A stretch of 64,000 nucleotides of DNA from Auricularia sp. M13 (Eukaryota; Basidiomycota; Agaricomycetes; Auriculariales; Auriculariaceae): positions 8,432,001 through 8,496,000 of the forward strand of contig CM073193.1 of assembly GCA_037042915.1 (NCBI GenBank). The letters run 5' to 3'. Of this stretch, positions 1,691 to 27,695 are shown one piece after another. The notes under the pieces are model-generated. The model searched no databases and was not told the origin of the DNA. It worked only from the letters and a program-made list of their open reading frames with translations. Each line of letters starts with the position of its first letter. The first letter of the stretch is position 1. A program made the translations under genes and the position numbers.

Positions 1691-1694
1691 GTGC

Positions 1695-6365: not shown

Positions 6366-6715
6366 ATCTGATGGAGATGGGAATTTGGGGAGCTTGGGGG
6401 AGTTGGGGGTAGTGGGAATTTGGGAGTACTGACTTAGATAGACTTAGAGGGCTGAGAGGCCTAGGAGTGGGCAAAAAGATTCAATTGGACTCTGGGAGTT
6501 GTGGGAGTTGGGAGTGGGAATATGTACATAGGAGTAACCCTCAAACTTGGGACTTGAGGAAAGCTGGGACTTGGGACTCGCTTTTTTGGGACTGCAAAAG
6601 TTGGGACCTGGGACTGGGTTCTTGGGACCGGAATATGAGGGGGTGGACTGTATTGTGGAAATTGGGACCTGGGACCCGAGTCTGTAATATAAGGAACTTG
6701 GGACCATTATACTGA
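6366..6715 (+). repeat. G-rich degenerate repeat tract
   Basis: The plus strand is a run of variants of TTGGGACT, TGGGAGT and TTGGGGGAG with strong purine/G skew and many GGG triplets at short spacing. No coding content is seen. It starts directly after the stop at 6365. G-quadruplex potential is an inference from the GGG spacing. Confidence 0.7.
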
Positions 6716-6900
6716 ATACAGGAGTGCTTATATACCTGCGGCGGCCGTGCGAGCGCTTTTGCGCGCAGCATTGCCAGAGACATCCTCGCAGTGTTCAACT
6801 TCGTCGGGCGGGCCAGCGACTTGAACGGCCGCCACGGCGGGGTCATTGTCATCCGTCGCAGACAACATACTATGCGAATATGAACGTTAAACAGGGGCTC

Positions 6901-7832
6901 TCAATCAGTCTCGGATTCCACGTACCAATTCTGAGTCGAAGGAGCTGTAGCTGCGTGCTTGGTAGACAGCCGTGGGTCCAAGGCGGCGTCATACACTGGT
7001 GACGGCGGACGGGACCTGGTGGGAAGAGCATCCATCGCCAGCAGACTGTGCCGGTCAGAGCTGTCATAACGCAGAGGTGGGAACGTTGGGAAGGAGTCCT
7101 TGAATATGGCACGGCTGAACGGGTTGGGTGGATCCGTGGCGTGTGTTCGAGGCGGTGGACCTTCGTTGTTGTAGCTTATGGTGTACACGTCGACGATGAG
7201 TTTGTCGTCCCATGTCCATCCGCAACCAAGTCCTGCAATAAGAACTGGCGTATTGGGAACCATAGACTCCAGAAGCGAGAACCGTTCCTGGTCTCTATGG
7301 ACCCAGCAACTGAAGAATAGTTAGTTGTATAATAGATATCGAGATACGACACGCACGACACCGTCAATTGATCGCCTGGCCATATATCTGGCCGGTCAAT
7401 GGTGACGTCGAAGCTGAAGCAGTTGACGGTGCCCGAGATTGATCTGGTGTCTGACGACACGACCCGCCAAGAACAACCTCGGAAGGCAATGAAAGCGCGG
7501 GGCAGCGGACCAGGGACGGGCTCGATGGCTGCAGGGATCAACGTGGACGCCGTAATCAGCAAGGTCCTGTCGGCGATGGCGCCGGAACCTCGGATGCGCG
7601 CGATTGTTCCAGGAGGGCATGGTTTCTTCAAAGTCCGATGCGCAATGCAAATGGGGATGTCCGAATCTGGCTTCGCTGAGCGAGGTAATTCCTAGCCAGT
7701 GGAAAAACACGCACAGTGCAGTGGCAGGGTTGCATGATAAATGTTATAGCCCTTCAGGCCCACAAAGTCGGCTGGGATGCGCTCGGGCTCGTAGAGAGCA
7801 ACCACGATGGAAGTGATCTGGAAGGATGACAT
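6901..7832 (-). CDS. Array paralogue A, uncharacterised protein
   Basis: Unknown function; first member of a five-gene paralogous set. Exons on the minus strand are 7832-7715, 7666-7357 and 7309-6901, giving 278 aa; phases 1 and 2 add up exactly. A TATA-like box lies at 7889-7896, about 55 bases upstream of ATG 7832. After the second intron comes the shared core: a Cys at the junction, an RDxxRF motif, then PVLIAGLGCGW and KLIVDVYTI. An earlier block (TIARIRGSGAIADRTLLITA) has the alternating hydrophobic pattern of a beta-barrel. The C-terminal third is Pro/Ser-rich and probably disordered. No signal peptide or membrane helix is visible. Closest relative in the window is B. An OB-like fold is my inference from strand pattern only. 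Confidence 0.7.
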
Positions 7833-7888
7833 GTGATGCGAAGACCCACGGCGTGAAATCTGATGGCCAAAAGGTCGGGATGTGTTTG

Positions 7889-7896
7889 TTTTTATA
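7889..7896 (-). promoter_or_regulatory. TATA-like box of paralogue A
   Basis: TATAAAAA on the minus strand, about 55 bases upstream of the ATG at 7832. Confidence 0.55.
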
Positions 7897-8372
7897 GCCC
7901 AAAAACCTGTAACAATAACTCGAGTGTCTGGAATGTGTGTTGTGCGACATTGTTCCCGTGACAGCTGTCAGACGGATGTAGACGTTGATTACATAAGCGT
8001 TCCAGTCTCCGCAGTTGTCTTACCAATGAAATATGAGACAACGACTTCTGAAGGCCTTAGAGACACTCTGAATCCAGATACTCATTGAATCATTTCCGCG
8101 TTACCACGGCTGGATCTTTTCCAGCGGAGCATTTGGCAGCCGGAAGCTAAGTGCGTACCAGCGCCTTTCACCTCCTCGCACAACTACATGGCCTGATACA
8201 CCTCCAAGGTAGTTTTTTTGCCCTATAAAATGCTATACGCTGGGCTGCAGGCACTTGAAGAGGTTAAAATAGTTTTTGAGCAGTGCGGGCTGCTCGTGAT
8301 CTCGCAATAGCGGCGACGGCCTACTATAATACTACTGTATTTATACTAATGATAGTTGTATGAACATTGAAC

Positions 8373-11300
8373 CTATAATAGTATCTCGGTATATGTTACA
8401 TTTTCCGCGCTATCCTGACCACCGGGAAGTCTAACGATTCCATGCTCGCGGCGTCTCACCCGCGAAACCGCGGTGTACAGTTGCCCGTGGGAAAAGACAG
8501 GTCGACATAAGTCCATAGCCACAACATCCAGTGTCAAGCCTTGGCAACTGTTGAATGTCGCGGGCGTAGGCTGGAGCTAGAGGAAATTGACGTCGTTGCA
8601 ACGTTCTTCGAGTTTCAGGCAGGAATGTCTCGAAGGTAATGCGCGGAATGAGGATGTCTTCCTCGTCGATCGCAACACCAGCCACAGTGTCCCTAAGCAC
8701 ACGGACTGTGATCAAGCGCACTCCCACATCCATGACTACGACTCTGACGTTCTTGACGAGCCCGCGGAGATAGAAAAATTGCGCAAGAGTCGAAAAACGG
8801 CATTAGTCTTGATTGTTACGGAATGGCCGGGAAGTCCAGGTATCGGAGCGCGCGCCGCATAGTCTAGAGACGCAATTCCGCGTTCTGGCATGCCGGCTTC
8901 CTCTTCCTCCTTGATCCTGTCCGCAGATAGATAAGTTCGTGCCACGCCGGCAACGCGATCAAGGATCTGAGCGTTGTAGCGATCTATCTGTCTGTTCGTG
9001 GGGCAGAGAATTGACCTCTTTAGACACGCCTTCGGATTGTTGATAACTTCCTGAGGATAGACGAATTCGATCATCTCCTCCTCTGTTTGGACATGCCGCA
9101 GCAAATGCAAAGGAACCTGCGGACCAGCGCCATCCCCGATGGAATCCACCCATGTGGAGTATTCAATGTCGTCCGCGTTGCGTATTGGGATAGTGAGGCG
9201 CCGGATGGTAAAGAGATTCCAGAGTGGCGAACGGCGAATAGAGGCATCGACCACCTGAGCACGAGTCCCGCGACGAACCACAGGACATGTTTGCCTGAAA
9301 TCGCCCGCAAGAATGACGATTTTCCCTCCAAAGGGTCGAGTGTCGCCCGTAACACGCCGGCAAGTCTCTTCCACACACCCCAAGGCAGCCCGATTAGCCA
9401 TAGGAGCTTCGTCCCATATGAGGACGCTGAAACTCCTGTAGTAGTTGGGCGGGAGTCGCCCCTGCTCGATCGGTGATCGGAGCAGCTCGTTATTTTCATC
9501 AACAGGTATCTGAAAGCCTCTATCAGCAGGCTTTTGAGCAGATGATAATAACATACCTTGAAGCATGAATGCGTCGTACGTCCGCCTTCATATAGAAGCG
9601 CAGCAAATGCAGATGTGGCAGTGGGAAGTACAATTTCGCTCCTGGAACGAACGTAATCGCAGATAACATTGATAAGGAAGGTTTTTCCACGTCCAGCCTT
9701 CCCATCTATGAATAGCAGTAGAGGTCGGTCATTCTCTATTGCATCGACCACCTGGTTGAAAATCTCCCGCTGCTCTACAGTCAATCGCGGGACGGCTGCC
9801 GCGATGTTGTTTCTGAACTTGATAAGGTGGGGAGCCCATCTGTCAAGCTCATACGCGACCTCGCCCACAAACGAAGTGGGTTGAGGCAATCCCAAGTCGT
9901 CTAGGCTCCGGCCAAACTCCTCGAGCATAAGCGCCAACTCTTGCAGAGCCCTCGAGTAAGCCGCTGTTCGTGAACCTCCGTTGTCATAATAAAAATCCAT
10001 GCTCAGCTCGTCACGGAACAGTTCCCATAATTTCAAGGGGAAGTCGACCTCTCCAGAATCGTGCACAATGAGGTGAACGAAGAGCAAACGGATCTGTCGC
10101 GGCGTTCTGAGGGACTGTACGGCCTCATGGAGTGCAAAATTTGCCTCGTTCCGATCAGCAAACAGGCCCATAGACTGCGCAGCTTCTTGGTACGTCGGAT
10201 ACACCACCGTGCCAAACGTGCGCGCGTCGAGAAAGGAACTCGCCGGACGATTGAGAAGAATGGCTCGTAGATAGAAAAGTTCGCCCTGAGAAGGTTTCAC
10301 AGAGGCAACACGTACAAAATGACGGTGAATCTCAGTCCGCTGCAAGACCAGCCTTGTGACATCGCCGTCGAGCACATCAGATTCTTGGTAGACACCAGGA
10401 TTATTGAGCAGCCGCGAATCCCACGGTATATGACGAAATCTGGTATAGAACTCCGTGTATGTGAGATCGGCAAAGGACAGAGTCTCCTGACCAGACACAA
10501 AAACTCCAGTAGGCCGGTGGAAATAGCGGTCCAAGAGAGAAAAGTTACTGACAGGCCCGTGCGCGCGCTGATACTGACGGTGTTTTCGTGACGCTGGTAA
10601 ATGGATGGGTAGGCCTGTGACACCGGGATATTTGCTCGACACATGGAATCCCATGATGCGCCAGGCAGCTTCACCAGCGGACAGATAACGCGCCCGCCAA
10701 TAGTTGTCAATTTCGTCGACAACCTCTGTACCATCGGGGCGCAGACGCACGTGCGCCTTGTCCACGCCTAGAGATCAATCAGCCAACGGGCTCACAACTA
10801 CTGAACGTAATGCACGAACCCTTTCGGATATACTTGAAAAGATATTGAAAGATATGGGATGAATTTGCAACCTCGAAATTGATATGGCATTCAAGAGCGC
10901 GCAGCAATGGCAGGCAGTGAGGTACTACCATGCTGTCCGCAGGACTACGTCGACGATACTGCGGCCGCCCGTCAAACGCGAACGTCGTGGTTTCCTGCAT
11001 GGCTTTGGGATAACCGAAACGACAGAGATTTGGAGGGAGGGGTTCGGCGTAGGCGAAGCGACGCGCTTTCGGCTGACAGTACTCAGGTAGTTCATCTGCG
11101 CTGGGATGATTATGACGCATGAAGCGGTGGACCAAGGCCGCGTCCGACGAATTTTGAGGCATTTCAGCGGACACTATGCGATCGACATCGCTAGGCGCCA
11201 AGCAGTCCCTCTCGAATTTGATCAGAATATGGCAATGCGGTAAGCCTCTTTTCTGAAACTCGACGGCGAATAGTCGGTACACCTGAATGTAGTAAATTAG

Positions 11301-12724
11301 TAAACGAGCACCATGAGAAAAAGAACACGCACCACTCGCCCGGCATTGGGAAACATCGTCTTGAGGGTTTTGAGCAGTACAGCAAGTTTCTGCTTGAATA
11401 CTCGCACGACCACAATAGGAACGTCAGACCAATTTTGACCCGGGCGCAGCTTTTCGCGAATTTCAGGCCAGTCGGGGTTGCAGGTCATCGTAATGAAGAA
11501 CGTCGGCACGCCGCAGTTAGCAGCAATAGTCAGTGCATCTGCAATCTGCTCTGAACACCAAGCATTTGAGCCAAGAAACGACGCCGGAAGAAAGACGTTT
11601 TCCTGCTCGCAGTGCGTGTCCACGCCCATCAACGCAGCATCCTCGCGGCGAGCAGCGAGCTGACCCGCGCGAATGTACGCCAGTCTAGACTCAATATTTC
11701 GCGTGAACATGTCGACAACATATTCATTCGTCAGACGGCCGAACACCGCAAAACGATCCTCGCGCAGAAGTCGAGCGCGGCAATGCCAGAGCTGGCTCGT
11801 AATTGTATCGTCGTCATTGGAGTCTAGCCCTATAGCAGGCCGTCGCGCTGCTCGTCCCCAGCCCAACGTGCCGTGTGGGAAAAAAAGGGGATAGACGAGC
11901 GGCTCCCAGAAACGGTTGACAGCGGAGATTGAATGTACATTGCGCTGCGTTCTGCGCACATCATCCACAAATCCCGCCTGTGGCTCGCGTTTCTTTGATA
12001 TAATAATGGACCGCAACTATTTTGCCTGTTAATACTGTTCGCCGAGAGTAGTGGTCAGCATTACCTTGACGTCGGAAGCGATCGTGTTCTCGAAGCACAT
12101 GATCCCAGCAATCTCATTGGTACCCGCTTCACGTATGAGTAGTTGCACGTTTGGCAAATCGCTCTCACGGCTTTGTCTAAATACATTGATATAGTGCACA
12201 TAAGGGTTAACACGTAGTAATGCGGCACCAAGGGCATCAATCCATTCCTGCGGCAAGAGCTGGAACCACCCCGCGCCCGTGTGTGGAGCCCTCCCTCGCA
12301 TAAACCCGTCGTACAAAAGCCAACGCACGGCGGAATTTGTATGATCGGGACGTACACGATGGTAGATACGGCCTTGCACAGCAAAATGAGCGGGCATGCC
12401 ACTGTAATCCGGAAATTGAGCAGTTGATTCTAACTGTGCAAACGTATATATGAGATTCAGAGTGCGCGAGAGCGATGAAACTCTAGGATCTCCTAGGAAA
12501 GTCGTAAACTCGTCGGGAAGTGGTGGGAGTGGTTCAACGTCGTTGAATTTCTCTCCACCGGGTCCGCAGCAAAATCCAGACGATTCGCCGGTGAGAAGCT
12601 CTATGCCACAGTACTGGCAATGGTTCGGTGCCTGTGTTCGCTTGTTCTTACCCCACCACAGCGTGTTTTTCAGAACACGGGCGACCTTCCACGTGTCGTC
12701 TACTGATGCGAGGGATGACACCAT
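8373..12724 (-). mobile_element. Helitron (rolling-circle DNA transposon), coding span
   Basis: The span holds a complete-length RepHel gene with Helitron-specific Rep and Pif1-type helicase domains. The element itself must be longer, but I could not fix its ends. Downstream of the stop, a short hairpin (GCTGGA/TCCAGC, near 8110-8130) is a possible 3' structure, but no clear CTRR end follows it. It lies between array gen A and the other array genes, on the same strand. High protein conservation with only two late frame breaks suggests recent activity. Confidence 0.9.
8373..12724 (-). CDS. Helitron RepHel protein (HUH Rep plus Pif1-like helicase), frame-broken at 3' end
   Basis: Minus-strand exons are 12724-12065, 12016-11333, 11282-10820, 10767-9557, then 9509 onward; introns of 47-52 nt keep phase. 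In order: an N-terminal zinc-binding region (CQYC...FCCGPGG), a Helitron-N Rep block (FFITMTCNPDWPEI), the HUH motif in RGLPHCHILI, the Rep tyrosine region YLFKYIRKG, then a Pif1-type helicase with Walker A GKAGRGKT, Walker B VLIWDEAP and GDFRQTCPVV, and late motifs CQGLTLDVVAMDL and YTAVSRVRRREHG. Rep nicks and joins single-stranded DNA; the helicase unwinds during rolling-circle transposition. Two one-base frame breaks occur in the last 130 codons (near 8757 and 8555), so this copy probably cannot make the full helicase. It is a plain DNA transposon gene with fungal-style introns. Confidence 0.92.
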
Positions 12725-13104
12725 GATGTCGGGTTAGATCACAGCTATTGACTCGAGGTCAACGAATGACAGCTAAATACCCTCTCTGGACTGAACGTAG
12801 GGTCTGAAATCGTATGAGTGAGACGCTATCGTTGTCTCAGACGCAATTTGTGAGACGTGACAGAACCTGAGCACGCTGACTCAGCAGGACGCAATCCGGC
12901 CCGCGCAGCCCGCAGACCAAACTCCGACTTTTCGCTGGTCATCTTGCTGTCCGGACGGTACTGCTCGCATTTTGCGCAGGTATCCCTAATAAATCGTCTA
13001 ACCGCACGCAGGCTCCAGCTTTCGCTGCTCGCTGTTTATCCGATACCCCTACTCCTGGTGCTTGCCTTCAACACGTGCAGCATCTAAAGCCGTGCAAATG
13101 TTCT
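12725..13104. other. Helitron upstream flank, no gene seen
   Basis: Probably includes the 5' end of the Helitron. Several copies of GAGAC/GTCTC-type words occur at 12810-12860. No coding content recognised. Confidence 0.3.
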
Positions 13105-13540
13105 CGCCAACGCGTGGCTTCCTGTGTCACGCGGATGAATAACCGGATGAGCGAGGCACAGCACCTGAGCGAGGTTGAGTCTTTTTGTGTGAGCGCGAAA
13201 GACGTCGTGAACCCGTTCCCGTCGCTGTTCTACGGCCCTGGCTGGCTTGCGTTTCACCCAGCAAAGTCCCGGAGAGATCAGCCTCACACTCGACAGCCGA
13301 CATTATTGGAAGTCAACGCTGCCCACCAGCAATCTGCGCTTCCAGTTCAAATCGCGCGGGCAGTATCGCCGTGCACTATGTGATGGAGCCGCCGAGTGCA
13401 GATGGCCCGCTCAATTCGGCCGTGCGGTGCTGGGTCAAGGGCGCACACACGATTAACATGGACGAGACGTTCGCGTCGCAATGGTACGTCGCCGTGTCTT
13501 TCAGAAGATCAAGTCAAGAATGATTGTCATTCACAGGCGC
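13105..13540 (+). pseudogene. Decayed unknown coding region
   Basis: Protein-like segments follow each other across three plus-strand frames: DVVNPFPSLFYGPGWLAF (to about 13255), then EISLTLDSRHYWKSTLPTS (about 13270-13340), then MEPPSADGPLNSAVRCWV and NMDETFASQWYVAV (about 13380-13500). No splice sites at the joins would restore one frame, so I read it as a broken gene. I do not recognise the family; the segments look like a beta-rich protein. A further coding-like piece (PNGSFSGLFAISYDE) on the same strand ends at a good donor near 14912 and may belong to the same former gene. Confidence 0.35.
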
Positions 13541-13572
13541 AACGATACTATGTACATGAAGCTTTCGTGCAT

Positions 13573-14550
13573 TCAATGCGCCCTCTTGTGATGCCACTCG
13601 CAGGACTCTATTAATTCGATAAAGGCGGTCATACTGTAAGTCCACGTTGCCAAAATATCATGGCGTTCTAACAGATCAATGTTCGCTATTGTAGATCTCT
13701 TTAACCGTTTGATGTGACGCTCCACATAACATTCCAACCTCCTCATGCTAAGTTCCAGAACTTCATCCAGATTCTCCCATCTCTCTCGCGAAAGCTGGAT
13801 CCAGTTGGCAAGATTTCGAACGGACACAAAGCCAGCAGGGTCGCACATAACATGTGGAAGACCAAGACCTACAACTGGATTACCGAGAACGAAGTAAGCC
13901 TGCTCGTAATGTCGATGAGATGATTTATCAGTCTTTCATAATCTTACAGGTAAAAGATTGCGCGGAACTACGTCTACATCCAAGTTGACAAAGCGGTCGA
14001 TGGCACGCAACAGGCGTGCGCGCAAAGCTCGTTTGTTCAGTAACGCGGACATGGTAATTACACGCCTGCACCCGACCAGCTGCGCGTTTTATATCTGTTC
14101 TATTGACATAAGTTTGGTAGACTGAGACATTTTCAGGGGCGCTCGGTACAATGCTCGCACGATCCGTAACAAAGTGAAACAGCAGTCTCGAAGAACACAA
14201 TGTGATCTGCAAACCAGGTATTGATTCTCGACCATGCCGCATGTAGTTTCTTTGCACTGACATCGCGCTGGCAGACTTCGTGGAGCATTAATCCACCTAT
14301 ACCCTCGTAGATCACCTGCATGTGATGCAGGCGCGCCAGGACCTCGTGCACGCATCTAACGGTTCGTATAGCATGCTGAACCCACGCTTTCACATAGGTA
14401 CGACGATGCATCAACCGGATATTGATCCTGGGCAGATTACCGACAACAGCCGGCGTGCGCGACAGGAAATACTGCTAAGAGGATCGGTGTGTAATCGAAT
14501 GCGGATTAAACGGAATTACTTACGGAGTTTTCCAGCTTTCGAAAGGTCAT
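13573..14550 (-). CDS. Unknown gene H, multi-exon
   Basis: Not recognised. A TATA-like box lies near 14618-14626, about 70 bases before ATG 14550. A 27-nt first exon (14550-14524, MTFRKLENS) joins through a GTAAGT intron to 14473, continuing with QYFLSRTPAVVGNLPRINIR and an alpha-helical stretch (YVKAWVQHAIRTVRCVHEVL, HAAWSRINTWFADHIVFF). A later part reads AIDRFVNLDVDVVPRNLLP, then an intron, then VSVRNLANWIQLSRERWENL and a helical tail (LERHDILATWTYSMTAF), stopping at 13573. The joins in the middle (about 14190-14050) are not resolved. Probably a soluble helical protein; no motif points to a reaction. Confidence 0.45.
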
Positions 14551-14769
14551 CGCGGCTAAATATGATCCAGAGAGCAATATGCAGGTCGCAAGTCAAGTTT
14601 AGCAGATTGGTCCCAGGTTTATATGCTCGTGAGGAGGCAACACATGACTGATCAACAACATGTCTCAGTACATGCGCGTCAGACATCAGCCTCCACGAAT
14701 CATTGGGCAAGACCGAGACCTGAAGTGAGGTTGCCGAGATTACCGACGCGCCTGCGCTGGCGATGGCGC

Positions 14770-15500
14770 GTTCAACCATGGTCATCGCGCAGAATCCGCC
14801 CCTTGCCATTACCGCGAATTCAGTGGCGCACCGCCACCGCGAGCAAGTATTGCCCTCAACGCCGCCGACCAACGTCCCAACGGCAGTTTCAGTGGTCTGT
14901 TTGCCATCTCTTACGACGAGGTGAGTGTTAAGCTAGCCGCTGAGATTGACAGTTTGCAGAGCGCGTCCCTCACTGCGAATGATCGCCATCATCACCTGCA
15001 AGGCTTGTCGCTGCAGCCTCCGTCCAAGATGCTGCGGTGGTCTCAGTCCCCTCCTGGTGGTCGCACGCGACGACGTCAGTCGTCGGCTCGTCGTTTTTGC
15101 GCCGCTGACGCGGACATTCGCACGGAACCCGTCCGCACGGATTCCCTGGATCGACAACCCCGCGTCATCCAGGTCGCCGCCTAGGTCAAATCTCGTCTCC
15201 GTCGCCACCGACAACGTAAAAGTGCGCTCAAAATCGCGTGCTAGACACGGGGGAGTCACCTGAGCGCGCGATGATGGTCAGCGTGTACATGCAGCTCGCT
15301 TCATCGGTGCTTATAACGTTGAACAGCTTTCAGCGTCGTCGCGCGGAATATGCGTATCGCGTGGCTGAAGGACGTCGCAACCGACGCCACAGGTTGGAGA
15401 GCTCGCGGTTCGCGGAGAGTATTGAGAACAGCGAAGACAGGCAGCTCACGCAAGATGCGTTTCACGTATCAGCTCGCAGAACACAAACACTGTTGAAAGG
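14770..15500 (+). other. Coding-like fragments, unassigned
   Basis: A plus-strand stretch up to about 14912 reads PNGSFSGLFAISYDE before a GTGAGT donor; plausible continuations after 14964 stay open to 15184 but have no recognisable content. The upstream region overlaps the promoter of gene H on the other strand. I cannot build a coherent gene. Confidence 0.2.
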
Positions 15501-16124
15501 GTCGTGACCTACTGCTTCGCGCAGGATAAGCAGCGTCTCAAAGCGACGCAGATTCCACGGTCCGTTTGTCCACTGCCGCGGCGCCCTCCCTCCTACGCAG
15601 CCCGCCGCCAGTCTCCCAGCGCTGAAGTGAGCGGTGCTCGCGCCCAGAGTTCTCCCATGAATCCCAGGCTTACTCAGGACGTATACCAGCGGTGCGCAGA
15701 ACACCTGCAGATATTGCCACGCCTAACATATACTTCAGATTAGTATACGTTACGGGTCGTACTCCCAGTAGACACTCGTGCATAAGCGCAACTATGTAGT
15801 CTCAGGTAGTTTCTCTCTATCAGTAATATAAGGCCACTACTCAAATGTCACTCATTTCAAGGGTGATCGCACGATTGATATTAGCACGGCCACGTTATTT
15901 ACGAACATACAGCGGCAGTCTCAGAAATACAAAAAATGGGCACGATGATCAAGGGAAACTACTGAGATGCAAGGTCGGAAATCGTTGCAGCTTGAGCTAA
16001 GGGGCTCCGGGGGTGTGGGCTCTTAGTATAGCGTCGGCGCGAGCGAATGACTCGATCGGTGATCGCCCGCTCGGCGAGCAACTTGTTTCCAGACGGAACT
16101 GAATCCAAGCAGGCGCTTGGAGTA
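15501..16124. other. Intergenic, nothing recognised
   Basis: Downstream of array gene B on the minus strand. No conserved coding, repeat or RNA structure seen. Confidence 0.35.
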
Positions 16125-17030
16125 TCATCCTCGGAATCCGATACATCTATAACGATTGGAATATCGTCTTCCCTGTGGACCGTCAGCTACCATATTCTCC
16201 GGCAAAGTTAACTTAACAACGTACTCGGGAATAGTCACAGGACCTGGACTATAGGCCGGAGGAGCCTCGGCCAACACAGCGTAGTCGTTGACAAAGCTGC
16301 AGCGTGTAAACGGGCTGGGAAACATTGCGAGAGGCCTTTCGGGTGAAAGGCCGACGTTGTTGCACCGAATCTCATGCACATCGATTGCGAGTTTGTCGTC
16401 GGCCCAGCCGAATAGTTTGCCGCATACAATCAAGGGCATGTCGCGGACCAGAGGAATGAGAGTACGGAACCGCTTCTCATCCCTGTTAAAGCAGCATCTT
16501 GCAAAATGGCAAATTAGCGACAGAACCTCCGAGGAGAAAACGATCTACCTGATGACCGTCGGTTTATAAGGCCAACGATCCGAGTTGTCACACGTCAGAT
16601 CGACAACAACAGCAGCGGGATTGCCAAGGTCAACGATGCGACCAGATGACACAACGCCGGTGACAGTCAACGACGGCTCGTACAGTGCTGCAGCCGCCGA
16701 GCGAGTGGAGGGTGTTGTAGCGACATAGAGAGGGATCAGCTCGCAAGCAGTGACCAAGATCGATCTGCCGACGACGCTGAAGCATCCCGAAAGATGTGCG
16801 TTGGTGGCGGACGGCAGCAACTTGGCATCGGGCTTCTGCAGGGGAAGAGCCACGGTCACAGGGAAGACGTCGTCTGTGAAATATGAGGCTCATGTGCACA
16901 GGGCAAGGCTCAATGACATACTGTTCATCACCAACTCAGAGAGATATGTAGCGCAGTGGCTGCCTCCACCAGACTCCACCGAGGATAATGTGGGCTTGAA
17001 GAGGTCGATTTGAGTGTCGATGTACAGCAT
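16125..17030 (-). CDS. Array paralogue B, uncharacterised protein
   Basis: Exons 17030-16922, 16873-16549 and 16497-16125 on the minus strand give 268 aa with exact phase arithmetic (phases 1 and 2, as in A and E). A TATA-like box sits at 17093-17100. The N-terminal half contains a strand-rich block (LSGCFSVVGRSILVTACELI) matching the equivalent block of A (LLITASTLIP). After the second intron the core reads CFNRDEKRF, then MPLIVCGKLFGW and DDKLAIDVHEI. A Pro-rich tail follows (EAPPAYSPGPVTIPEY). Closest to A in tail and motif. No signal peptide or transmembrane segment. Function unknown; a nucleic-acid or protein-binding beta-barrel is conjecture. Confidence 0.7.
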
Positions 17031-17092
17031 GATTGGCGAAGAGCGATAGACAATGGCGAGTTTGACGTCGAGCTGGCAGTCCACGCGCAGCC

Positions 17093-17100
17093 TTTATAAA
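17093..17100 (-). promoter_or_regulatory. TATA-like box of paralogue B
   Basis: TTTATAAA, about 65 bases upstream of ATG 17030 on the minus strand. Confidence 0.55.
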
Positions 17101-17443
17101 TCACAGATCCCAGGCTCGCGTGATCAAGATCTCACAGCTCAAGCCTGAATCAAAGTCTCAGGTTTAAACTCAATCAGCTGGTGTTGACGCGACACGGTCT
17201 CGAACTCTTGATCAGAGACATCGGACTCTAAAATGACAACTGTCATGAATTTGGTGCCGAACACAGCACGCAGATACAACGAGCTCGTTGCTAGCCGGTT
17301 TGGGATTGTGCTGGATTGGGATTGTGGTTTGCTTGCAGTTAAGAACGAGCTCGCGACGAGAAGAGTTTCTGGATAGTACAGCAATTTATTATAAACTCAA
17401 GATACAATCACATTCGTAAATCAAGTCCATATACAAACTACAC

Positions 17444-17970
17444 CTACACCGAGCGGCGGGACAATGCAACATCTGCGTCATCAAGGAAGGCATGAAGATG
17501 TTCCATCCAAGACTCGAAAAACTCGGCGTGGCGACGGACAGTACGGTCCGCACGCGAAGACGACGCAAGCTCCATGTGCACATCAAACTCCAAGCCGAAC
17601 AACCTCCTGCGGGCATGCCTCAGGCGTTTGCGAAGAATGCTAATGTGTGGGAGGCGCCGAAAAGCGCGAGCAGCCCAGGTGCGCGGGTACCGAGGCTGCT
17701 GAATGCGGCCCCAATCGATGAAGGGAAGACCGCTGCAGGATTTACTGCAGCGCTCTGCGTAGTAACACTAACACAAAAGTGAGCACATAGAACGCAGGCG
17801 GTAGTAATTTACGCACATAAAGAGGCTGCAGCGGATAGTCATTGGCCGACTTGACGGCGAAGGACTGCTCGCGATGAAGCGCGCAACGGCAACCTGCAGG
17901 GTGCAGACTGAGCCAAGCACAGACGTTGCCAAGAGCGTAGCTGCGCACCGTATGTCTGAGCACAGCGCAT
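17444..17970 (-). CDS. Unknown gene G
   Basis: A TATA-like element near 18022-18028 precedes ATG 17970 by about 55 bases. The best coding evidence is the last exon (about 17750 to stop 17444), which reads DWGRIQQPRYPRTW, a basic stretch (ILRKRLRHARRRLF) and a charged helical end (HAEFFESWMEHLHAFLDDAD). An intron with donor GTGCGT near 17815 and acceptor CGCAG near 17755 is likely, but the first-exon frame that fits it is not resolved. The family is not recognised. It lies between B and C in the same orientation as the array. Confidence 0.35.
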
Positions 17971-18752
17971 TGCGGGAGAGAGGAAGCGATCTGGGCAGGC
18001 GGATGGGTCTTGAGCAAACCATTTATACTGTGGGAGCGAGCAAGTGTCGGAGTTCGACACGGTTTACATCCGACCCCGTCTCCCGCGCCAATATGACACG
18101 CGCGAGACAGAATTGTGTTCTGTATATTCACGTCATTCGATTTCTCTCCAATTATATGTACTTATTTTAACGCCCGTGAAGCACGGATGTTGGCATTATA
18201 AAGAAGCAAGGTACACTATCCTCGACCGCGAACTCCATGAGACTGCCAACCAATTCTGACACATCAGTCGTCACCATTATTATCCGAAGTACCACTCTCT
18301 AGGACATTCAGCTCTTATATCTGAGGAAAGGATACGTGTATTCTTACATTCTCAAGGCAAAGGCGCAATGTTGCACAGTAGCGACTTCGCTCACACAAAA
18401 TACTACCGTGCTGCCGGAAAATCTCACTGAACATATGGGAAGCCATGAATTTACCTCCCGCAGGCGTGGTATATATGACCTCAGCCTGTGGTCTTTACCT
18501 GTCAAGGATTTAATGTCTCAGATGAAGTTTTGTAGACAACATTGTCTCATATACAGCATATGAGACTCCTGCCACCATCATGATCGTCTCGGCGCTGACT
18601 ATGCCCGTGTTGAATAGAGGATAGGTTCAGAATTAGATCATAGCTGCTTATGAGCCTGGTATTCACGGAGGTTTCGCAATATGTACATTGACATCAAGAG
18701 CCTGCCAATTCGCAAGAGACCATCACTATCAAATTCGAGGGACACAGAGATC
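17971..18752. other. Intergenic between genes G and C
   Basis: Contains the probable promoter of G. No coding content recognised. Short GTCTCA/TGAGAC words around 18510-18570 are palindromic but too short to interpret. Confidence 0.3.
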
Positions 18753-19778
18753 TCATTCTTCCTCTGCCTCATCAATCACCAGCTTCCTCTTTACAGCCCT
18801 CCGCTGTTTAGCCACAGACCGGCGTCCAGACCTGTAGCATAGTGAGAAAGTTGGATCTAATCAGGTCCGTGTACTTACGCGCTCCCGCTCGATTCCAAAG
18901 ATTGGTCTGGCGGAGGGAGGACCACCTCATCTGCTACCGCGGTTCCCTGCTGGGTCTCTGCGCTGAGATACTTCTACATTAGGAAGCTGCGAAGCAATGA
19001 AAAGCTCACACTCACCCTCCTGACTCTGACTTGGTGGCAGGAGTCACTGAACTCAGCGGAAACTTTCTACGCTTCGCCGGTGCACCTCCCAATTCCGCTC
19101 GCGCAGCAGACGCAGAGCTTGAGGTCCCGCCAACGTTGAGCTGAACCTGGTCCACGTCTATCAACAGATTACCGCTTGCAAGATGAAGCCCATGCGCAAG
19201 TCCAATGACGAAAACAGGCACGCCCGGCTGCGGACGCGGTGTTTTCTTCCAACGCGGTTTTCCTCCATCAAAACGACAGCTATCTTCAGGTAAGATAAAG
19301 TCCCCATTGCTAGATGAATAATTGCTTACTACACGCGCGACGAACGTGCCTGATCACGGACGTAGTCGGACGTTGTCACAGAGTAACCAACGGAGGCTGT
19401 GTCATCCATTGTCTCCGGGATGCTACTGGTATGTCCGAGCACGAAAAAGGTCGGGAATGGTCGTTCAGGAATCCTATCTTCATAATCCGCAGAAGACGCA
19501 TCTCCCGGAAATGCGGCCAAATGGATGACATCAATCCACACCGTGCCGTTAGGAGGCGCGTACACCTTCCCGAGTATGTCCGCAACGGTCCCGTCTGGCA
19601 GGAGTGCTTCATTGGCGGGAGACCAAGTCCTGATCTCAGCAGAGACATCGACGCCACTGGTCTGAATGACCGTATCATACAGAACATGATGCGTGGTCTT
19701 GTGCGTGTTTGGGTTCTCCGATGATACGCGACGGCCGTTGGCAAGACCGAAGTAGCCGCTAAGCAGGAAGGACGTCAT
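18753..19778 (-). CDS. Array paralogue C with basic C-terminal tail
   Basis: Exons 19778-19330, 19279-19016, 18962-18879 and 18831-18753 give 291 aa with exact phases. It lacks the first intron of A, B and E but keeps the phase-2 intron just before the core Cys. N-terminus is MTSFLLSGYFGLANGRR; a strand-rich block includes VWIDVIHLAAFPGD; the core reads CRFDGGKPRW, VPVFVIGLAHGL and GNLLIDVDQVQLN. The C-terminus holds GRRSVAKQRRAVKRK followed by an acidic end, a bipartite-type nuclear localisation signal. A second basic patch (APAKRRKF) lies just after the core. A TATA-like box is at 19841-19848. A nuclear location is a reasonable inference from the basic clusters; biochemical function unknown. 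Confidence 0.75.
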
Positions 19779-19840
19779 GTGTGCGAGTATATGTCAGCTG
19801 TTGAGTGAGAGTATGGTGCTTTAGCAGAAAAACAGGGAGC

Positions 19841-19848
19841 TTTATAAA
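19841..19848 (-). promoter_or_regulatory. TATA-like box of paralogue C
   Basis: TTTATAAA, about 65 bases upstream of ATG 19778. Confidence 0.55.
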
Positions 19849-19859
19849 CCTGAGCGGAC

Positions 19860-20529
19860 TTAGCGCAGAGTCTGGAATCCTGCCCATGAGACACCGCGTT
19901 TGGCCCCATTTCCTCGTCATCAGTCTCAGGAAGCACAACTAAGACAAAGGAGACTATGTTGTGTCAAGGTCTCACTCCATCAGAGCAAGACCGCGCGGCG
20001 CGCATAGATCATTCTAACTCCGCTACCAGCTCTGCTCTCCTCCCTGACGCCGACGTCCATGCAGCCAGCCAGCACGGGAAGGCTTAGCGCCGCGGCCAAT
20101 CATATGGATCACTGGAACAACCCGCACTTCCACCCTATCACTGGGTGATTCCAGATGCTACGTGAATCATGCGCGCCATTGACCGTGCGCACGGGAGCCA
20201 AGCAGCGCGAACGACGATGCGCACATATGTTCACGTGGCGCGCACGAAGATCCCAACGCGACGCGCCCGGCAGACTGTGTGAGCGAGACGGTGGCGGCGA
20301 GGGCTGACACGTCGTCGCGTTAGCTGCGAATTCCGAGTCAGCCACACTTATCGCGTGTCTGCGGGAGGTCACCCTGCGCCACGCAGACGATATGGACGAG
20401 CCGGGCGCAGAAGGAGGAGGTACGAGTTCTTTGTCATGCATGTAGTGCAAACAGTGCAGAATGATATTATGTTCTAGTCTTCCTGAATGCAACAAAGTGC
20501 CCTCAGATTATAGTATGTACATGGGCTGC
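19860..20529. other. Intergenic, nothing recognised
   Basis: Upstream of C and downstream of gene F. A minus-strand frame at 20109-20495 is open for 128 codons with no recognisable content. Confidence 0.3.
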
Positions 20530-20989
20530 TCAAAGGAAAGCGAGTAGATACTCCACGAGTGCAAGCGAACTGATTTCGAATTTTTTGTAAAAAGTTTTAT
20601 GTCCCTCAAGGTCCTGGCGACCTGTCTCTTCCAACTCCTGCAAGTGCCTCTCGGCAACATGACGGATAATCGGTTTAATATCGAGTAACTGCTCTCGGAG
20701 ATCGAAGCCATCCGCACTGCCCTGTTCGATCCATTCTCGCGGATTATCGACTGAAACTTCGCCTTCTTCACTGATATTCACAGGTGGAAGCCAACTTCCA
20801 GCGAATGGATTCTTGAGAGACAATTGCAGCTAGATCTGGATTATCACCATGGACGCTTGGTCATGCAACAGAGATCATACCTGTAGTAGGTTCAAAGGCA
20901 CTTCGCTGGCAGGCAAGTCGCTAAACTTGCTTAAGGGATGCCGAAATGGGATTCAGGAAATACTGAGGCATTATCTCGTACAGAGGCGC
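20530..20989 (-). CDS. Unknown gene F, small acidic protein
   Basis: Not recognised. A TATATAA-like box (21026-21033) precedes ATG 20989. The main exon reads LKNPFAGSWLPPVNISEEGE, DLREQLLDIKPIIRHVAERH, then HKTFYKKFEISSLALVEYLL, and stops at 20530. An intron near 20838-20886 (GTATGA to TCTAG) joins upstream sequence SDLPASEVPLNLLQ in phase. Reaching the ATG requires one more very short intron (about 34 nt, GTATTT to TTAAG) or a frame break. The product is acidic and helical, roughly 115-120 aa, with no signal peptide. It sits inside the array in the same orientation. Confidence 0.45.
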
Positions 20990-21277
20990 CATGGTTTGGA
21001 AAAATAAATGATGGAAGAAGTCGGGTTATATAGGCAAATTCATGCTGTCTCACTTTGGTGCTTGACTCTCGAAGCACCACAGAAGTTGTCTGGGACTGCT
21101 GACATGAGACACGGGTCACACGCGCGTTTACGCAGGCTGCCGTTTCAAATCGAACGTAATTTGCCCAGCGAACATACAATCAATTTATAACATCATCTCA
21201 ACTACGTACATGGCGTTGAAAGTGTACATGAAACAGAAATGTAATATCAGAAGCAAGACGAGCAGACAGGAAGGCCT

Positions 21278-23059
21278 TCAGAAGTTACATGGCGTCGCGC
21301 GGAAGCCGGTGTAATAGGGTCTCGGGGTAGCAGAACGCGAGGGCACAGCTTCGACGGAAAATTCGGATTCGGACATGAGCGTATCGCGGTAGTCTTCGAG
21401 AGGAGGTGAATGATCAGGTTCCATAATCGGGACCGCAGCACAACCCTGCTCCATACTCTGGGAAAGTGGCGGTAACGCAAGCAGCGCGTCCGCGCGACCA
21501 CAGTCGCCAAGCGGGCCCAGGTTCGGGAACTGGCTGTACAGGAAAGCGTCGAATGCTTGTTGATGGCTCTCCACCCAATTTGACGCGACATTGTGGTCAT
21601 CTCCAGTCTGCGCGGGGCCGCTCGTACGTCCTGATGCAGAGCGAATCGAGGGCTGCGAGGTGCCGGCCGCAGGGGACGAAGACCGAGGTGTCATAGATAG
21701 ATAAACGGGCGCGGGAAAATAGTGAAGCGTAGTTGGCGAGAACATGGGCGAGGAGGTGCCCGCCCACCGAGCTGAAGCAGATGCAATACGCGGGGTAGAT
21801 CCAAACTCAACCGGTTCGCCGATGGGAACTGCGGCCTCATCCGCCACTTGCGACGCGGGTTGAGTGGGCAAGACGGACGGCGAGGGACTGACGGACCAGG
21901 GAGCTCGGCGAGACACAATGCGCGGAGCAGGAACAAACCCGAGCGGTTCATCGACGAGATCCGCAACGTTGTCGGCCATCCCTGACGCGGGCGAGTAACC
22001 AGGAGACCTTGGCGAGTAGCGAGGCGAAGTCGGCGAATAGCGAGGCGAAGTCGGCGAATAGCGAGGCGAAGTCGGCGAGTAGCGAGGCGAAATCGGCGAG
22101 TAGCGAGGTGAGATGGACGAAGAGCGCAACGACGCGGAAAAAGACTGGACGGTGTCGTCGCGGCGTCCGTTTGAGGCACCACGGTAGGCTGACTGGTCAC
22201 TTCCTCCCGCGGGGAACCACGCGTAGCAGACAGAGGCAGTGGCAGAGATCCCGCCGCTTCGTCACGAGGCAAAATTGAACGAAGCCTGTCTCGCCAATTA
22301 GAGAAAGAAAGAGAGGTCAACATTCACACGTACCACCCGCACAAATTCTCTGTCGGCGCCATGGGATATAACGATGAGCGCAGCAGACAATGAGCGTTGC
22401 AGGGAATCTCGTTGCTGTCGAATTTGGCGTCGTGGACGGCAACGACGAGTGTACCGGCATCAACGCCCACCACCAGTCCAGCGACATTGGCCTTCTCGTG
22501 ATTTTCAAGGGGCTCGGACTTGCTAACGTGCCCGGTGTCACTGTTGATTTCGCACCTGTCCACGTCGGTCAGACCAGTCCGACCTGGATTGATATATGCC
22601 GCACCTGACTGTCAAAGCCGGAGCCCATGTCTGTCCGAGCCCGACTACGACTCCAAAAACCCCATACGCGGGAAGAGTGACAGAGCCTGTGAAGACGAGG
22701 GATGGAAGGGGAGAGGGTGACGCGTCGGACCGGACCGGGTTTTCGGAGATAAATACGTGCGGAGTTTTAACGTAGAACGTGTCGCGCGCGAAGTCCGCGG
22801 GCCCAAGAACTTGCGCGTGGGTGCCGTGCGCGATCAGACGCGTGTTTGGACCAGCTGGGACGGCCACGAGTACTGAGAGTTCCGTGCCTGCCCGGTATAA
22901 CGTCAATACTTCATCACGACAACCGAGGCATACAATAGACGAACCGCGAAAGTCGATGGTGGAGAAGTAGACATGCAAGAAAGGATCCCCGTTTGCCCCT
23001 GGGCAGACGACAATTGGGGACCGTAGTTCGAGCGACGCGTCAAAGTGGAAGTGGGGCAT
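21278..23059 (-). CDS. Array paralogue D with RNA polymerase II CTD-like heptads
   Basis: Exons 23059-22605, 22555-22334, 22285-22201 and 22144-21278 give 542 aa; all lengths sum to a multiple of three. N-terminus [13 protein letters not shown] matches E (MATFHFDSFLKLR). The phase-2 intron before the core Cys is conserved; the core reads CEINSDTGH, then [20 protein letters not shown]. Residues 269-309 are tandem heptads: YSPISPR, three [14 protein letters not shown] and a partial YSPASG. The remaining tail (to 542) is Ser/Pro-rich and acidic, with a loose internal repeat ([13 protein letters not shown] versus [13 protein letters not shown]), which supports this frame. The intron 22145-22200 that sets the heptad frame has a fair donor but a weak branch site. 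Heptads of this type are otherwise known from Rpb1, where they are phosphorylated and recruit RNA-processing factors; such a role here is inference. Confidence 0.7.
21980..22102 (-). repeat. 21-bp tandem repeat encoding YSPTSPR heptads
   Basis: On the minus strand the unit TCGCCGACTTCGCCTCGCTA recurs as a 21-bp period, five full units plus a partial one. In the annotated frame of gene D each unit encodes a CTD-like heptad. Neighbouring units differ at synonymous and single non-synonymous sites, so the array has begun to diverge. Confidence 0.85.
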
Positions 23060-23094
23060 GTCGAGAGCTCGAGCTTGTTCATGGCCAGTGCAAG

Positions 23095-23102
23095 CTTATA
23101 TG
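23095..23102 (-). promoter_or_regulatory. TATA-like box of paralogue D
   Basis: CATATAAG on the minus strand, about 37 bases upstream of ATG 23059. Confidence 0.45.
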
Positions 23103-23499
23103 TTCGCACGGCCTGTCACTTAGCATTTTGCATCCGAAGTGTACACGGACACCGAAGAATCACGGATTCGCAATCTCACAGCAATGTCAAACTAATTGCA
23201 AGCACACGGTATCTCTTTACATTACACAAAGAAGCCCTTGTCCGTCGAGCAACTATCACTGGTCCTTCCTAGGTTTACTCCAGCGCGCGAGCTTCAGGAC
23301 GAGCTGCGCAGCAAAATTCAACCCGAACTGGGGAGTTGCGGAAACTCGCTCTGTGAATATGGACCAATGCAAGTCTGCGAGATCACAGATCAGTCCAAAG
23401 AAATTTGAAAAGTCTGGGACTACATACCGAGCCTTCTCTTGCTGTTGTACGAATCTCGAGCGACCTAACACAGCCGTCACCCTGGAAAAGCAGTTAGCT

Positions 23500-24252
23500 T
23501 TAGCGGAAACTTCGACAAAAATGCACGCACAGCCGTGAGGCAAGTCGTCTGACGCAAGTACGGCCAGAGCAGAACAGACCACGAGCGCGATGTGAGCTTC
23601 GAGAGTTACAGTCATCCAATTCAAACTTCCGAACATCGATAGTCAGCGCATCACTGCTTGCACTGATAACCAAGCCCGATATAATAAGGACTGTGCCTGC
23701 GGCCAAATGCCGAAATGTGGCGAATGCATCAATTTGGTCGTCGACACGGCATCTGCAACGGACGTGAGTACTGCGTTTAAAGAGGACACGTAATTCAATA
23801 ACCTCACTGTAACCGGCGCAGGCAGGCGTCTAGTGCGCTGCACTGTAAGATCGAGAACGGAAAGCGGGAAGTTTTTTTCGCGCGCTAAAGCATCCGTGGT
23901 TGGAGCGACCACCGCGGGTGAAAAGCGAGCTTCCTCGGAGCGGGTAATGACAACGATGGATGTTGCTTCCACAAAAAGAGTGTCACAGACAACGTGCGCC
24001 AGGCCAACGACCCGCGCCCACGTCTCATTCACAATGGAAACGTCGTCGTTGGAGCCGCATGGCGTCGTGACACAGACGGCGAAGGTGCAACCTTTGATAA
24101 TGAGCGGGAGTCGGCGCAAGCTTCCAGGAGCGCGTACCATCATGCACCGTGGTAGAAAAGTATATCCGAACATGTGGCTTACGGTGTCGCGTGGGAATGA
24201 TGATGGAGGGATTGCGCAGCTTGAGGAAGCTGTCAAAATGGAAGGTGGCCAT
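23500..24252 (-). CDS. Array paralogue E, shortest family member
   Basis: Exons 24252-24138, 24091-23803 and 23752-23500 give 218 aa with phases 1 and 2, the same intron positions as A and B. N-terminus MATFHFDSFLKLRNPSIII resembles D. The core after the second intron reads CRVDDQIDAF, then TVLIISGLVISASSDALTID and VRKFELDD. It lacks the long Pro/Ser tail of A, B and D; the final 35 residues are Cys/Arg-rich and may be an extension past a missed splice site. A TATA-like box is at 24282-24288. A separate downstream minus frame (to 23256) could hold a further exon. Function unknown. Confidence 0.65.
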
Positions 24253-24281
24253 TGCACATGAACAACGACAATGCTCTGTCC

Positions 24282-24288
24282 TTTTATA
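24282..24288 (-). promoter_or_regulatory. TATA-like box of paralogue E
   Basis: TATAAAA on the minus strand, about 32 bases upstream of ATG 24252. Confidence 0.5.
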
Positions 24289-24701
24289 GTGGCCACTACT
24301 TGTCTCGGTCGACCCGTACCAGACAGTACATGAGGGAAAGTCTGAGGAAGAAAATGCCAGACAACGCAAGTGTCACGCAAGGCCGAGTGAGACATGGACA
24401 AAAGTATTTAAACCGCTCCAAATTTGGCAAGTCCGAGGCGTCTAAAAATGGAAATTACCCCCGTGTTTGACAGCTTAGGGGGAATATGGTAACTATACGA
24501 GGGGATCTTACGCGATGTGCTGACCGACTCCGCAGTAGCTTTGGCACGGTTTAGGAACGATGAGTGACGATGTGGGGTTTGAAATCAGGCATGGGACATT
24601 GCTCAGCACCTGCGCATACCGGACTTATTTCGTAGTCGGCACCTTCTTAAATACGCTGCCCCACGTCCAGAATCCTGTCTCAACATCCCCCGTCAGACAC
24701 A

Positions 24702-25145: not shown

Positions 25146-25948
25146 TTTCCATTCCGTCGTCCTCCCAGTTAGAGCATCGCGACTTCGAAAGATTCATACA
25201 TCTCTCCGCATTTATGTCCTTGTCTCAAAAAATATAGCCATTGAGCTGGTACGGACCCGCAACGAGCTCGTATCTAAGCAAGCAAAGTCGTATAATTGCC
25301 GACGCATCCGCAGGAGGAAAGCGATGGAAGAGGACAAGCAAACATCCGGCGGTGCTGTCAGAGTGCCGCTGGATGCAGTGGCAACAGTGTGGCAATAAAC
25401 CCTGGGCGCGCGCAGTCCCACAGCGCGCTGTTTACTGACTGTCAGTAAATCCAAGCATCGAAGCATAAAGGTGTAGTGCTGTTATGAGGGATATACCGAC
25501 TTTTGCACCAGAAGCGATGGTGCGGTCGAATGCAGAGTCGGTACTCCCAGGACCACTCCCGAATGACAGGTTATGTAAGGAGAAGAGCGCGCGGTGTCCT
25601 GTACCAGCAGATACGCGTGTTTTACGCATAATAAGGTTGCATTCTACATGTTGCACTTGATGAACGTCAAGAAAGGAGTGGCATTGAGGAATATTCGCAG
25701 AAGGCGTAATGCCAGCGGCTCATCAGATAAAATTTGCATGCAACTAGAGCTACGAGAGCATCTGAGAGTTGTGCAGAAGAACTGAATTACTGGCAATAGC
25801 TGCTCGTGCAGCGCCAGCATCGAAGAGTGGCCGTGGAGCCGGCTCAGATGAGCAGGCGGATCACAGGCAATTGCATCCGGAGTCGCTTCTTTTCCTCGTC
25901 CTCCAGAGTGAAGTCCACCTGCGCCACACGCTGCCACACTTCGCCCAG
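25146..25948. other. 5' flank of F-box copy 1, part of a segmental duplication
   Basis: From about 25220 the sequence is homologous to 51090-50405 read on the minus strand. The duplicated upstream part contains short open frames in both copies (CRRIRRRKAMEED versus RRLIRRRKVKG), but they are not aligned in length and I do not call a gene. Confidence 0.4.
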
Positions 25949-27695
25949 ATGCGCAAGGCCGTGACGTTTGATGACTTCAGGGCCTTCATACTCGACGACA
26001 TGATGGAGGCCGCAGGCTTCCAGGCTGATGGTCAAGACATCCCGTGGATGTGGTCCGCCGCAGTCGTCCAGCATCTTGACTTGCTGGTATGCAACATGCA
26101 CCGCTGGATTGACTGCGTCCACGTGGGGATTGGCAAACAGTACAACTGTCTCAATCCTGTCAACACGCTTCCCGTCGAGGTTCTGTGCATGATTTTCGCG
26201 GCGACAGGGGCGGCAGACAACATCGAGGAACAGCTCACTCTGGCCAGCGTCTGCCGCCACTGGCGCTCTGTGGCGATGGAGAACTCTGCACTCTGGTCCA
26301 AAATCACCATTGATAACAGATATCGCATATCCCGGCAGGTTGGTCTCGAGCTCGAATGGCGCCTCGCTCGAGCCGAACCAGCACCAGTCAGTCTATATTT
26401 TCGTTCCCATATGCCTTGCGCGGACGCTCGGCTCGCGGACTCACTGCTGCTGCACATGTATCATATACGTTCGCTCGAGGTGGACGTGCATCACGACATC
26501 TTGACGCGGGACTTGCGAAATGTGTTGACCATGCCGGCGCCATGCTTGTTGAAGCTTTCTATCGAAGCATACTCGGAGCGTGAAGGACTAGGTGGTCCCG
26601 TCGTTTGCCCTCTTCCAGACAATCTCTTCTCTGGCGATGCACCTCGGCTGCGGCAGCTAGTCCTGACCAATTTGCCGCCACCGCTACCGACGTGGCCGCC
26701 GCTGCGTAATATCGAGCGCTTCACACTCAATGCTTTGTCTGTGGAGGAATCGCCACTCGTCGCTGCGCTCCTATGCTGCCCCCAACTGCGTTTTCTGGCT
26801 CTCGACATCGAGTGTTTTCAGGTAGACGAGGCGGGGCCCGTGCGTCTGGATTCGATGCTGCAGAGTCAGCACATGGCCATCAAGTTCAATTTAGGGGACA
26901 CCTCGATATCCCAGATCCAGACGTTCTTGACGCATATTCACTGCCGGGATGCGAAACATCTGTTCATCTCCATCGTCGATAGAGTCGACGCGGCCGCATG
27001 GTTCATGGCCTCGGCTCTCGAGTGTGGAGCCAAGGAGCTCGATTTACACGACTGTCGCAAATCGGCAAGGGCGTTTGTTGTGACGGCCGTCGCTCGCACG
27101 TCAGCAGGCGAGGTTCGCGCCGCGGATTTCAGGCTGCACTCTCTCTTACCCCTGGCCCCGCTTTTCCCCTCGCTGTGCCATCTAACAATCGTCGAGAGGA
27201 TGTGGCCCAGAAAGTACTCTCCCGATATGCCGGACCTGCACACGCTCACCGTCGTGCTCGAGCACCCGGTGCTTTCCATGCGCGACACCACTGGCGCCGT
27301 GGGGTTGTTCTTTCTTTCGCTCCAGCCGGACAACGCTTGGTACCTCCCGGGGCTCCGCACGCTGAAGCTGGCATTCAAGGACCCATGCGTGGACCCGCAG
27401 ACTGGTCGACCACCACGCTCTGGTGGCCCGCCGCTTGTTGTTTCCGCTTATGACATCGCAACATTCCTTACCTGGCACCTCCGCTCCGACCGTCGCCTTA
27501 CCCTGGTGCTGCAAAACGTCAAGCTCTTCGAGCCGCAACATAGTGCAGAAGTTCAGCAATTGGAGGCGATGCTCGAGGAGCTCGTCATCGAGCCGCACTT
27601 TTCTCCCGAACCAGCAGACGTGCACGTCGACGTTTAGAATATCCTTCAATCTTCGCTCTTAGACAGTCTTCACATCATCTAATCTATGTTGAGCA
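25220..27695 (+). repeat. Segmental duplication copy 1 (with F-box gene)
   Basis: About 2.4 kb homologous to 48660-51090 in inverted orientation. Similarity runs from before an ATTGAGCTGG motif upstream of the gene to CTAATCTATGTT about 55 bases after the stop, then ends sharply. The encoded F-box proteins are of equal length and mostly identical. Confidence 0.85.
25949..27637 (+). CDS. F-box protein, copy 1
   Basis: Single exon of 562 aa from ATG 25949; this start is chosen because copy 2 and the pseudogene at 52608 share it (MRKA/MRQA). An open extension upstream lacks an ATG. The F-box spans about residues 70-119 (NPVNTLPVEVLCMIF, ASVCRHWRSVAM, ALWSKI). The rest is leucine-rich without a strict LRR register, including conserved blocks MPAPCLLKLSIEAYS and YLPGLRTLKLAFKD. 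F-box proteins bridge substrates to Skp1 in SCF ubiquitin ligases; substrate unknown. Large F-box families of this type are typical of Agaricomycetes. The inverted near-copy at 48716-50404 shows recent duplication. Confidence 0.88.
   Translation: MRKAVTFDDFRAFILDDMMEAAGFQADGQDIPWMWSAAVVQHLDLLVCNMHRWIDCVHVGIGKQYNCLNPVNTLPVEVLCMIFAATGAADNIEEQLTLASVCRHWRSVAMENSALWSKITIDNRYRISRQVGLELEWRLARAEPAPVSLYFRSHMPCADARLADSLLLHMYHIRSLEVDVHHDILTRDLRNVLTMPAPCLLKLSIEAYSEREGLGGPVVCPLPDNLFSGDAPRLRQLVLTNLPPPLPTWPPLRNIERFTLNALSVEESPLVAALLCCPQLRFLALDIECFQVDEAGPVRLDSMLQSQHMAIKFNLGDTSISQIQTFLTHIHCRDAKHLFISIVDRVDAAAWFMASALECGAKELDLHDCRKSARAFVVTAVARTSAGEVRAADFRLHSLLPLAPLFPSLCHLTIVERMWPRKYSPDMPDLHTLTVVLEHPVLSMRDTTGAVGLFFLSLQPDNAWYLPGLRTLKLAFKDPCVDPQTGRPPRSGGPPLVVSAYDIATFLTWHLRSDRRLTLVLQNVKLFEPQHSAEVQQLEAMLEELVIEPHFSPEPADVHVDV

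Follow-up and report, generated by a model that had tools for sequence, protein, structure and literature searches.

RNA polymerase II CTD-like heptads on a passenger gene of a Helitron in Auricularia sp. M13

Heptads of the RNA polymerase II C-terminal domain (CTD) are almost a signature of Rpb1, and we know of no earlier case of a DNA transposon imitating them. Canonical Helitron1 elements have a 5' TC, a 3' CTRR and insert at AT, and how Helitrons find their targets and work with the host nuclear machinery is, to our knowledge, poorly understood. PIE-1 bears a CTD-like heptamer (our literature search for this heptamer found no paper); PIE-1 and Pgc are animal germline regulators, not transposon proteins, and no long heptad array is known to us in either.

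Helitrons with accessory genes are already described, to judge from the available sections of the sources cited here. RPA-like proteins that bind single-stranded DNA have been acquired at least three times, and PHRPA in plants is an accessory protein beside the transposase (PMC4683698); other Helitrons carry deubiquitinases (PMC9741609) or, in fungi, TET/JBP dioxygenases (PMC12730594). RPA-like genes are reported absent for the Pleurotus RepHel ORF (PMC4289320) and do not occur on the Fusarium Helitrons, among which the Helitron2-like FoHeli elements combine Rep with a PIF1 helicase, as does the element described below; unlike that element, they are accompanied by no mention of a gene array or a CTD-like tail in the accessible text (PMC5148889). 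Outside transposons, Pgc and PIE-1 offer a precedent for proteins other than Rpb1 that act on P-TEFb, a role like that of the decoy considered below: Pgc binds it and PIE-1 is a presumed inhibitor, according to the available part of that source (PMC3484670). What would be new here is an accessory protein of a sort that we have not seen described, with a CTD-like tail; in the portion of the open-licence literature covered by our searches, no protein of a Helitron or other transposon was described as carrying CTD heptads.

The window, the whole stretch of 64,000 nucleotides that we analysed (positions 8,432,001 to 8,496,000 of contig CM073193.1, assembly GCA_037042915.1), contains a Helitron of which gene D is a passenger. 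All comparisons beyond the window are within this one genome. The features of the element, in window coordinates, are as follows.

6739..24507, minus strand: stretch common to the window and its copy on contig C12, starting at 24507; the window passes into other repeats at 6739
11300..12016, minus strand: Helitron Rep region (Helitron_like_N, PF14214; E 1.4e-28)
8736..10774, minus strand: PIF1-like helicase part of the Helitron transposase, split between two frames that overlap (E 3.6e-20 and 5.8e-26)
23766..24252, minus strand: paralogous D core in tandem with D, on its upstream side, as pieces in several frames (E 1.8e-6, 1.1e-4 and 2.6e-4)
16548..16889, minus strand: further paralogue exon in the array (E 4.6e-25)

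Profile matches thus predict both a Rep (HUH) domain and an SF1B/PIF1 helicase, about 11 kb from gene D and on the same strand. Near-identical copies with exact ends and different flanks are dispersed in the genome. The copy on C12 is 99.25% identical to the window over 12.7 kb, begins at the same point (24507) between different flanks, and differs by one insertion or deletion of about 500 bases in the block from 24507 to 6739. A related Helitron is present in four copies (on C1, C2, C7 and C9) that are 99.35-99.58% identical over 15.6-16.3 kb and share one exact 3' end, ...CTTCCCTTGTA, followed by four different flanks. A similar 3' end, ...TTTTCCTTGT, closes a piece common to C12 and C1. Neither end reads CTRR as in canonical Helitron1; the ...CCTTGT found here has a counterpart in the CTCCTGT of Fusarium FoHeli3-5, as given in the available part of PMC5148889.

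Gene D had been modelled in a first-pass annotation as four exons (23059-22605, 22555-22334, 22285-22201 and 22144-21279, minus strand) with a 542-aa product. Comparison with the C12 copy leads to a simpler structure.

22605..23059, minus strand: exon 1, start of the conserved core (MPHFHFD...), with related cores at 28 genome matches
22556..22604 and 22286..22333, minus strand: the two introns
22334..22555, minus strand: exon 2, end of the conserved core, from similarity to related cores and translation
21279..22285, minus strand: exon 3, coding for a Ser/Pro-rich tail that looks disordered and that includes the heptads and a C-terminal ...CNF; open in the C12 copy and with homologous tails elsewhere
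22145..22200, minus strand: stretch annotated earlier as an intron; its counterpart in the C12 copy has one more base and is coding, in frame
21980..22102, minus strand: CTD-like heptads, from frame translation, Pfam and the 21-bp repeat unit

In the C12 gene, two introns, of 49 and 48 nt, are enough: its three exons encode 575 aa, with core and heptads in one frame. Since it is open and in frame through the stretch corresponding to 22200-22145, the CTD reading frame proposed in the annotation is right and its third intron is probably not real; the refutation test built on that intron, in which its skipping or retention would put the repeat in another frame, is probably wrong with it. Inside this stretch, upstream of the heptads, the window copy lacks one base that C12 has. 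As assembled, it would either splice out a 56-nt GT..AG segment or be a copy that may be frameshifted (or that contains a one-base assembly error).

The heptads lie where they had been placed, at residues 269-309 of the four-exon model. The run opens with YSPISPR (residue 269, base 22102), continues with a three-fold unit and closes with YSPASG, and the DNA beneath it is a 21-bp tandem array (21990-22108). Pfam RNA_pol_Rpb1_R (PF05001) matches the run with E 2.2e-10 and 40.7 bits, above the curated cut-off of 20.3. A sequence search of the PDB (E <= 1) returned 27 distinct matches, 22 of them, with E as low as 1.1e-73, named as RNA polymerase II or CTD peptides, the others being four designed SAKe proteins and one CDK7 entry. 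Three exact YSPTSP hexamers occur in the tail, where 0.0004 are expected per shuffle, and this count was reached in none of 50,000 shuffles; since the copies in a tandem array depend on one another, a fair estimate of chance is about 4e-4, for a single unit in a single tail. The array of the window is two heptads (42 bp) shorter than that of the near-identical C12 copy, so that the array is, on this comparison, partly a product of 21-bp slippage.

The core of D is a protein other than Rpb1, as the annotation had also held. It matches no Pfam family at E <= 10, including any RNA polymerase core domain, and nothing in the PDB by profile or single-sequence search, and the real Rpb1 of the host is located on C5. 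Three comparisons between D cores gave dN of 0.24-0.42 and dS of 1.22-1.36, which points to a core under constraint. RPA homology, as in PHRPA, was sought for D and not found. An OB/RPA identity of the core is without support from Pfam, the PDB, PF16900 or two AlphaFold models (mean pLDDT 30 and 38, each built on an alignment of three rows); PF16900 has one strong match in the genome (C4) and one weak match below the cut-off (C7), neither at a D gene. That the core has an OB fold is a hunch from strand patterns, and the core is possibly nucleic-acid-binding. No relatives of D were confirmed in viral contigs.

Across the genome, the D core has 28 matches, which are not independent because many are fragments of a single gene or come from copies of a single element. 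Of these, 25 lie within 20 kb of a PF14214 match on the same strand, compared with 1.8% of random places drawn on nine contigs of known size. The three exceptions are C2:3026300 and, on C1 near 8.380 Mb, a pair of pieces that are 63 kb from the transposase of the window. The transposase DNA of other lineages is about 66-75% identical to that of the window in its main blocks, and the D tails are therefore old homologues.

Six distinct D-family tails were read. YSPTSP heptads are present in four of them (window/C12, C3, C5 and the four-copy element, whose tail reads HSPTSPY YSPTSPG YSPSTPT) and are degenerate or missing in two: the C7 tail near 3.612 Mb has FSPTSPG, SHPVSPP and YNPISPR, and the C12 tail near 1.097 Mb has no heptad. 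In 50,000 shuffles of each tail, the observed count of [YF][ST]Px[ST]P was reached 0 times for window/C12, C3 and C5, 3 times for the four-copy element, 805 times for the C7 tail and 50,000 times for the C12 tail near 1.097 Mb. D-like cores at C5:169 kb, C2:4267 kb and C2:3026 kb have no heptad tail within the stretches examined. Between lineages, the heptad units differ with pS of 0.44-0.78 and pN of 0.15-0.27, values that are supportive only, because the units were chosen by motif; within the C3 units, amino-acid-changing differences exceed silent ones (pN/pS 2.79). All six distinct tails (21279-21320 in the window, and its homologues) end in [CA]-x-Phe, with a YSL-like motif before it in several; the extreme C-terminus of the family is, by this comparison, conserved.

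The Rpb1 of the host provides a reference for these heptads. In its main CTD exon, YSPTSPR accounts for 5 of 14 full heptads and is the commonest form, followed by YSPTSPH and YSPTSPS with 2 each; the count covers this exon, and further CTD exons exist outside it. Like the Rpb1 CTD (PF05001), D carries tandem Y-S-P-T-S-P-x heptads in a disordered C-terminal part, and the YSPTSPR variant is common to Helitron D tails and host Rpb1. D differs in having a core without an RNA polymerase domain, few heptads, a transposon-borne gene and different Ser2 codons: the heptads of the window, C3, C5 and four-copy lineages use TCN or ACG at position 2, and all five host YSPTSPR units use AGY there.

Heptads of this quality are confined to the two families in our scoring. 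At E <= 0.06, Pfam heptad matches occur at 17 places (35 candidates scored), 11 in the D family and 6 in Rpb1; relaxing the limit to E <= 10 gives 34 places, of which 7 are outside both. A strict DNA pattern for YSPTSP finds 27 sites (15 in the D family, 5 in Rpb1 and 7 others), and its backwards control finds 1. Four of those 7 other sites were read (L048-L051), and all are solitary. A fifth heptad stretch outside D and Rpb1, at C2:2879388, was taken from the Pfam match list. Around it (C2:2879230-2879590, L052), a frame of degenerate heptads (YSPQYRPTSPKYAPMSPEY) precedes a coiled-coil-like stretch, and there is no D-family match.

The recurrence of related tails on distant copies suggests that the transposon may plug into the host transcription machinery. 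Our preferred reading, held tentatively, is that D is a Helitron accessory protein whose CTD-like tail docks on CTD kinases, CTD readers or condensates and so links transposition to transcribed chromatin. CTD heptads would have expanded inside the long Ser/Pro-rich tail of the protein; the tail would be a substrate of host CTD kinases of the Cdk7/Cdk9 type and would be taken up by CTD readers or Pol II condensates. The accessory protein and the transposition machinery might thereby be brought to transcribed, open and partly single-stranded DNA, which would suit rolling-circle excision or insertion. From the sequence, CTD kinases and CTD-binding factors, which the annotation had also named, are plausible partners of the tail. 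The annotation had overlooked that D belongs to a Helitron, that other Helitron lineages have heptads in homologous tails, and that YSPTSPR is present in host Rpb1 as well. The low number of heptads would be no obstacle, because yeast can manage with spaced di-heptads and the unit in mammalian cells is the penta-heptad, as reported in the available part of PMC6548728; tyrosine-driven self-association of the CTD is likewise documented in what is available of PMC10519987.

The main rival is an ordinary disordered Ser/Pro-rich tail that serves as a substrate of proline-directed kinases (CDK or MAPK), with an SPxSP unit amplified by 21-bp slippage, a likeness to the CTD that is convergent, and no CTD-specific binding. 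This is a serious possibility. The degenerate SP-rich tails in two of the six lineages and the difference in copy number between the window and C12 are what it would predict, and another ORF of the four-copy element also has SP-rich stretches. It accounts less readily for Tyr1 and the full YSPTSP hexamer, which recur in four lineages, for a heptad variant that matches host Rpb1, and for the finding that all 17 best heptad places are in the D family or Rpb1. With these points in mind, we lean, short of conviction, toward a genuine CTD mimic in some Helitrons, one that may be matched to the R7 variant of the host and may couple rolling-circle transposition to active transcription.

A different use of the same mimicry, with the tail as a decoy that titrates P-TEFb or other CTD kinases and readers and so damps host transcription or silencing around the element, has its precedent in Pgc and PIE-1 (PMC3484670, available part); it is unlikely, given few heptads per protein and the harm that such a decoy would do to a chromosomal parasite's own transcription. 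We consider it quite improbable that the Helitron captured part of the Rpb1 CTD exon and carries the heptads as non-functional cargo. Helitrons are known to capture gene pieces (PMC4289320, in the portion available), and the same YSPTSPR block is found in host Rpb1, but D showed no Rpb1 sequence besides the heptads and the tails recur with a common C-terminus; because the Ser2 codons differ from those of the host YSPTSPR units, recent capture of that block is disfavoured. A mere minisatellite, in a gene that is dead or has been misread and with the CTD frame untranslated, would fit the one-base deficit of the window copy upstream of the heptads and the other frames that are also open over them, but is very improbable given a C12 copy open through three exons, a core under constraint, and tails of like sequence and C-terminus in diverged lineages.

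If the preferred reading, that of a docking CTD mimic, is true, it would be the first imitation of the CTD by a DNA transposon that is known to us, in a form that matches its host, and Helitrons would gain a direct route to open, transcribed DNA. A short peptide also makes the question of how Helitrons engage the host machinery testable.

Several further observations concern the surroundings of the element. The 1.6-kb piece common to C1 (8380606-8379019) and C12 (1097149-1098730) is 99.37% identical between the two and carries both a gene like D and the ...CCTTGT 3' end. On C1, 58 kb separate this piece from the end of the Helitron block in the window, and on C12 the distance is less than 6 kb; the piece is likely to be the 3' part of the Helitron, split off on C1 by nested insertions. 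Window positions 1-6738 are other repeated DNA that adjoins the Helitron at 6738/6739; blocks 95-100% identical to it are found on C10 (1879457-1894314), C2 (2795748-2806221) and C3 (1108731-1110760), and the probable explanation is an insertion of another mobile element into the Helitron. Within it, at 5792-6040, are nested direct repeats with 12-base steps, one frame of which codes for repeats like NAPFNVRQPLLEQFDAPF. Just outside the Helitron block, on the plus strand at 25769-27637, is an intact-looking ORF for an F-box protein (PF12937, 8.1e-9).
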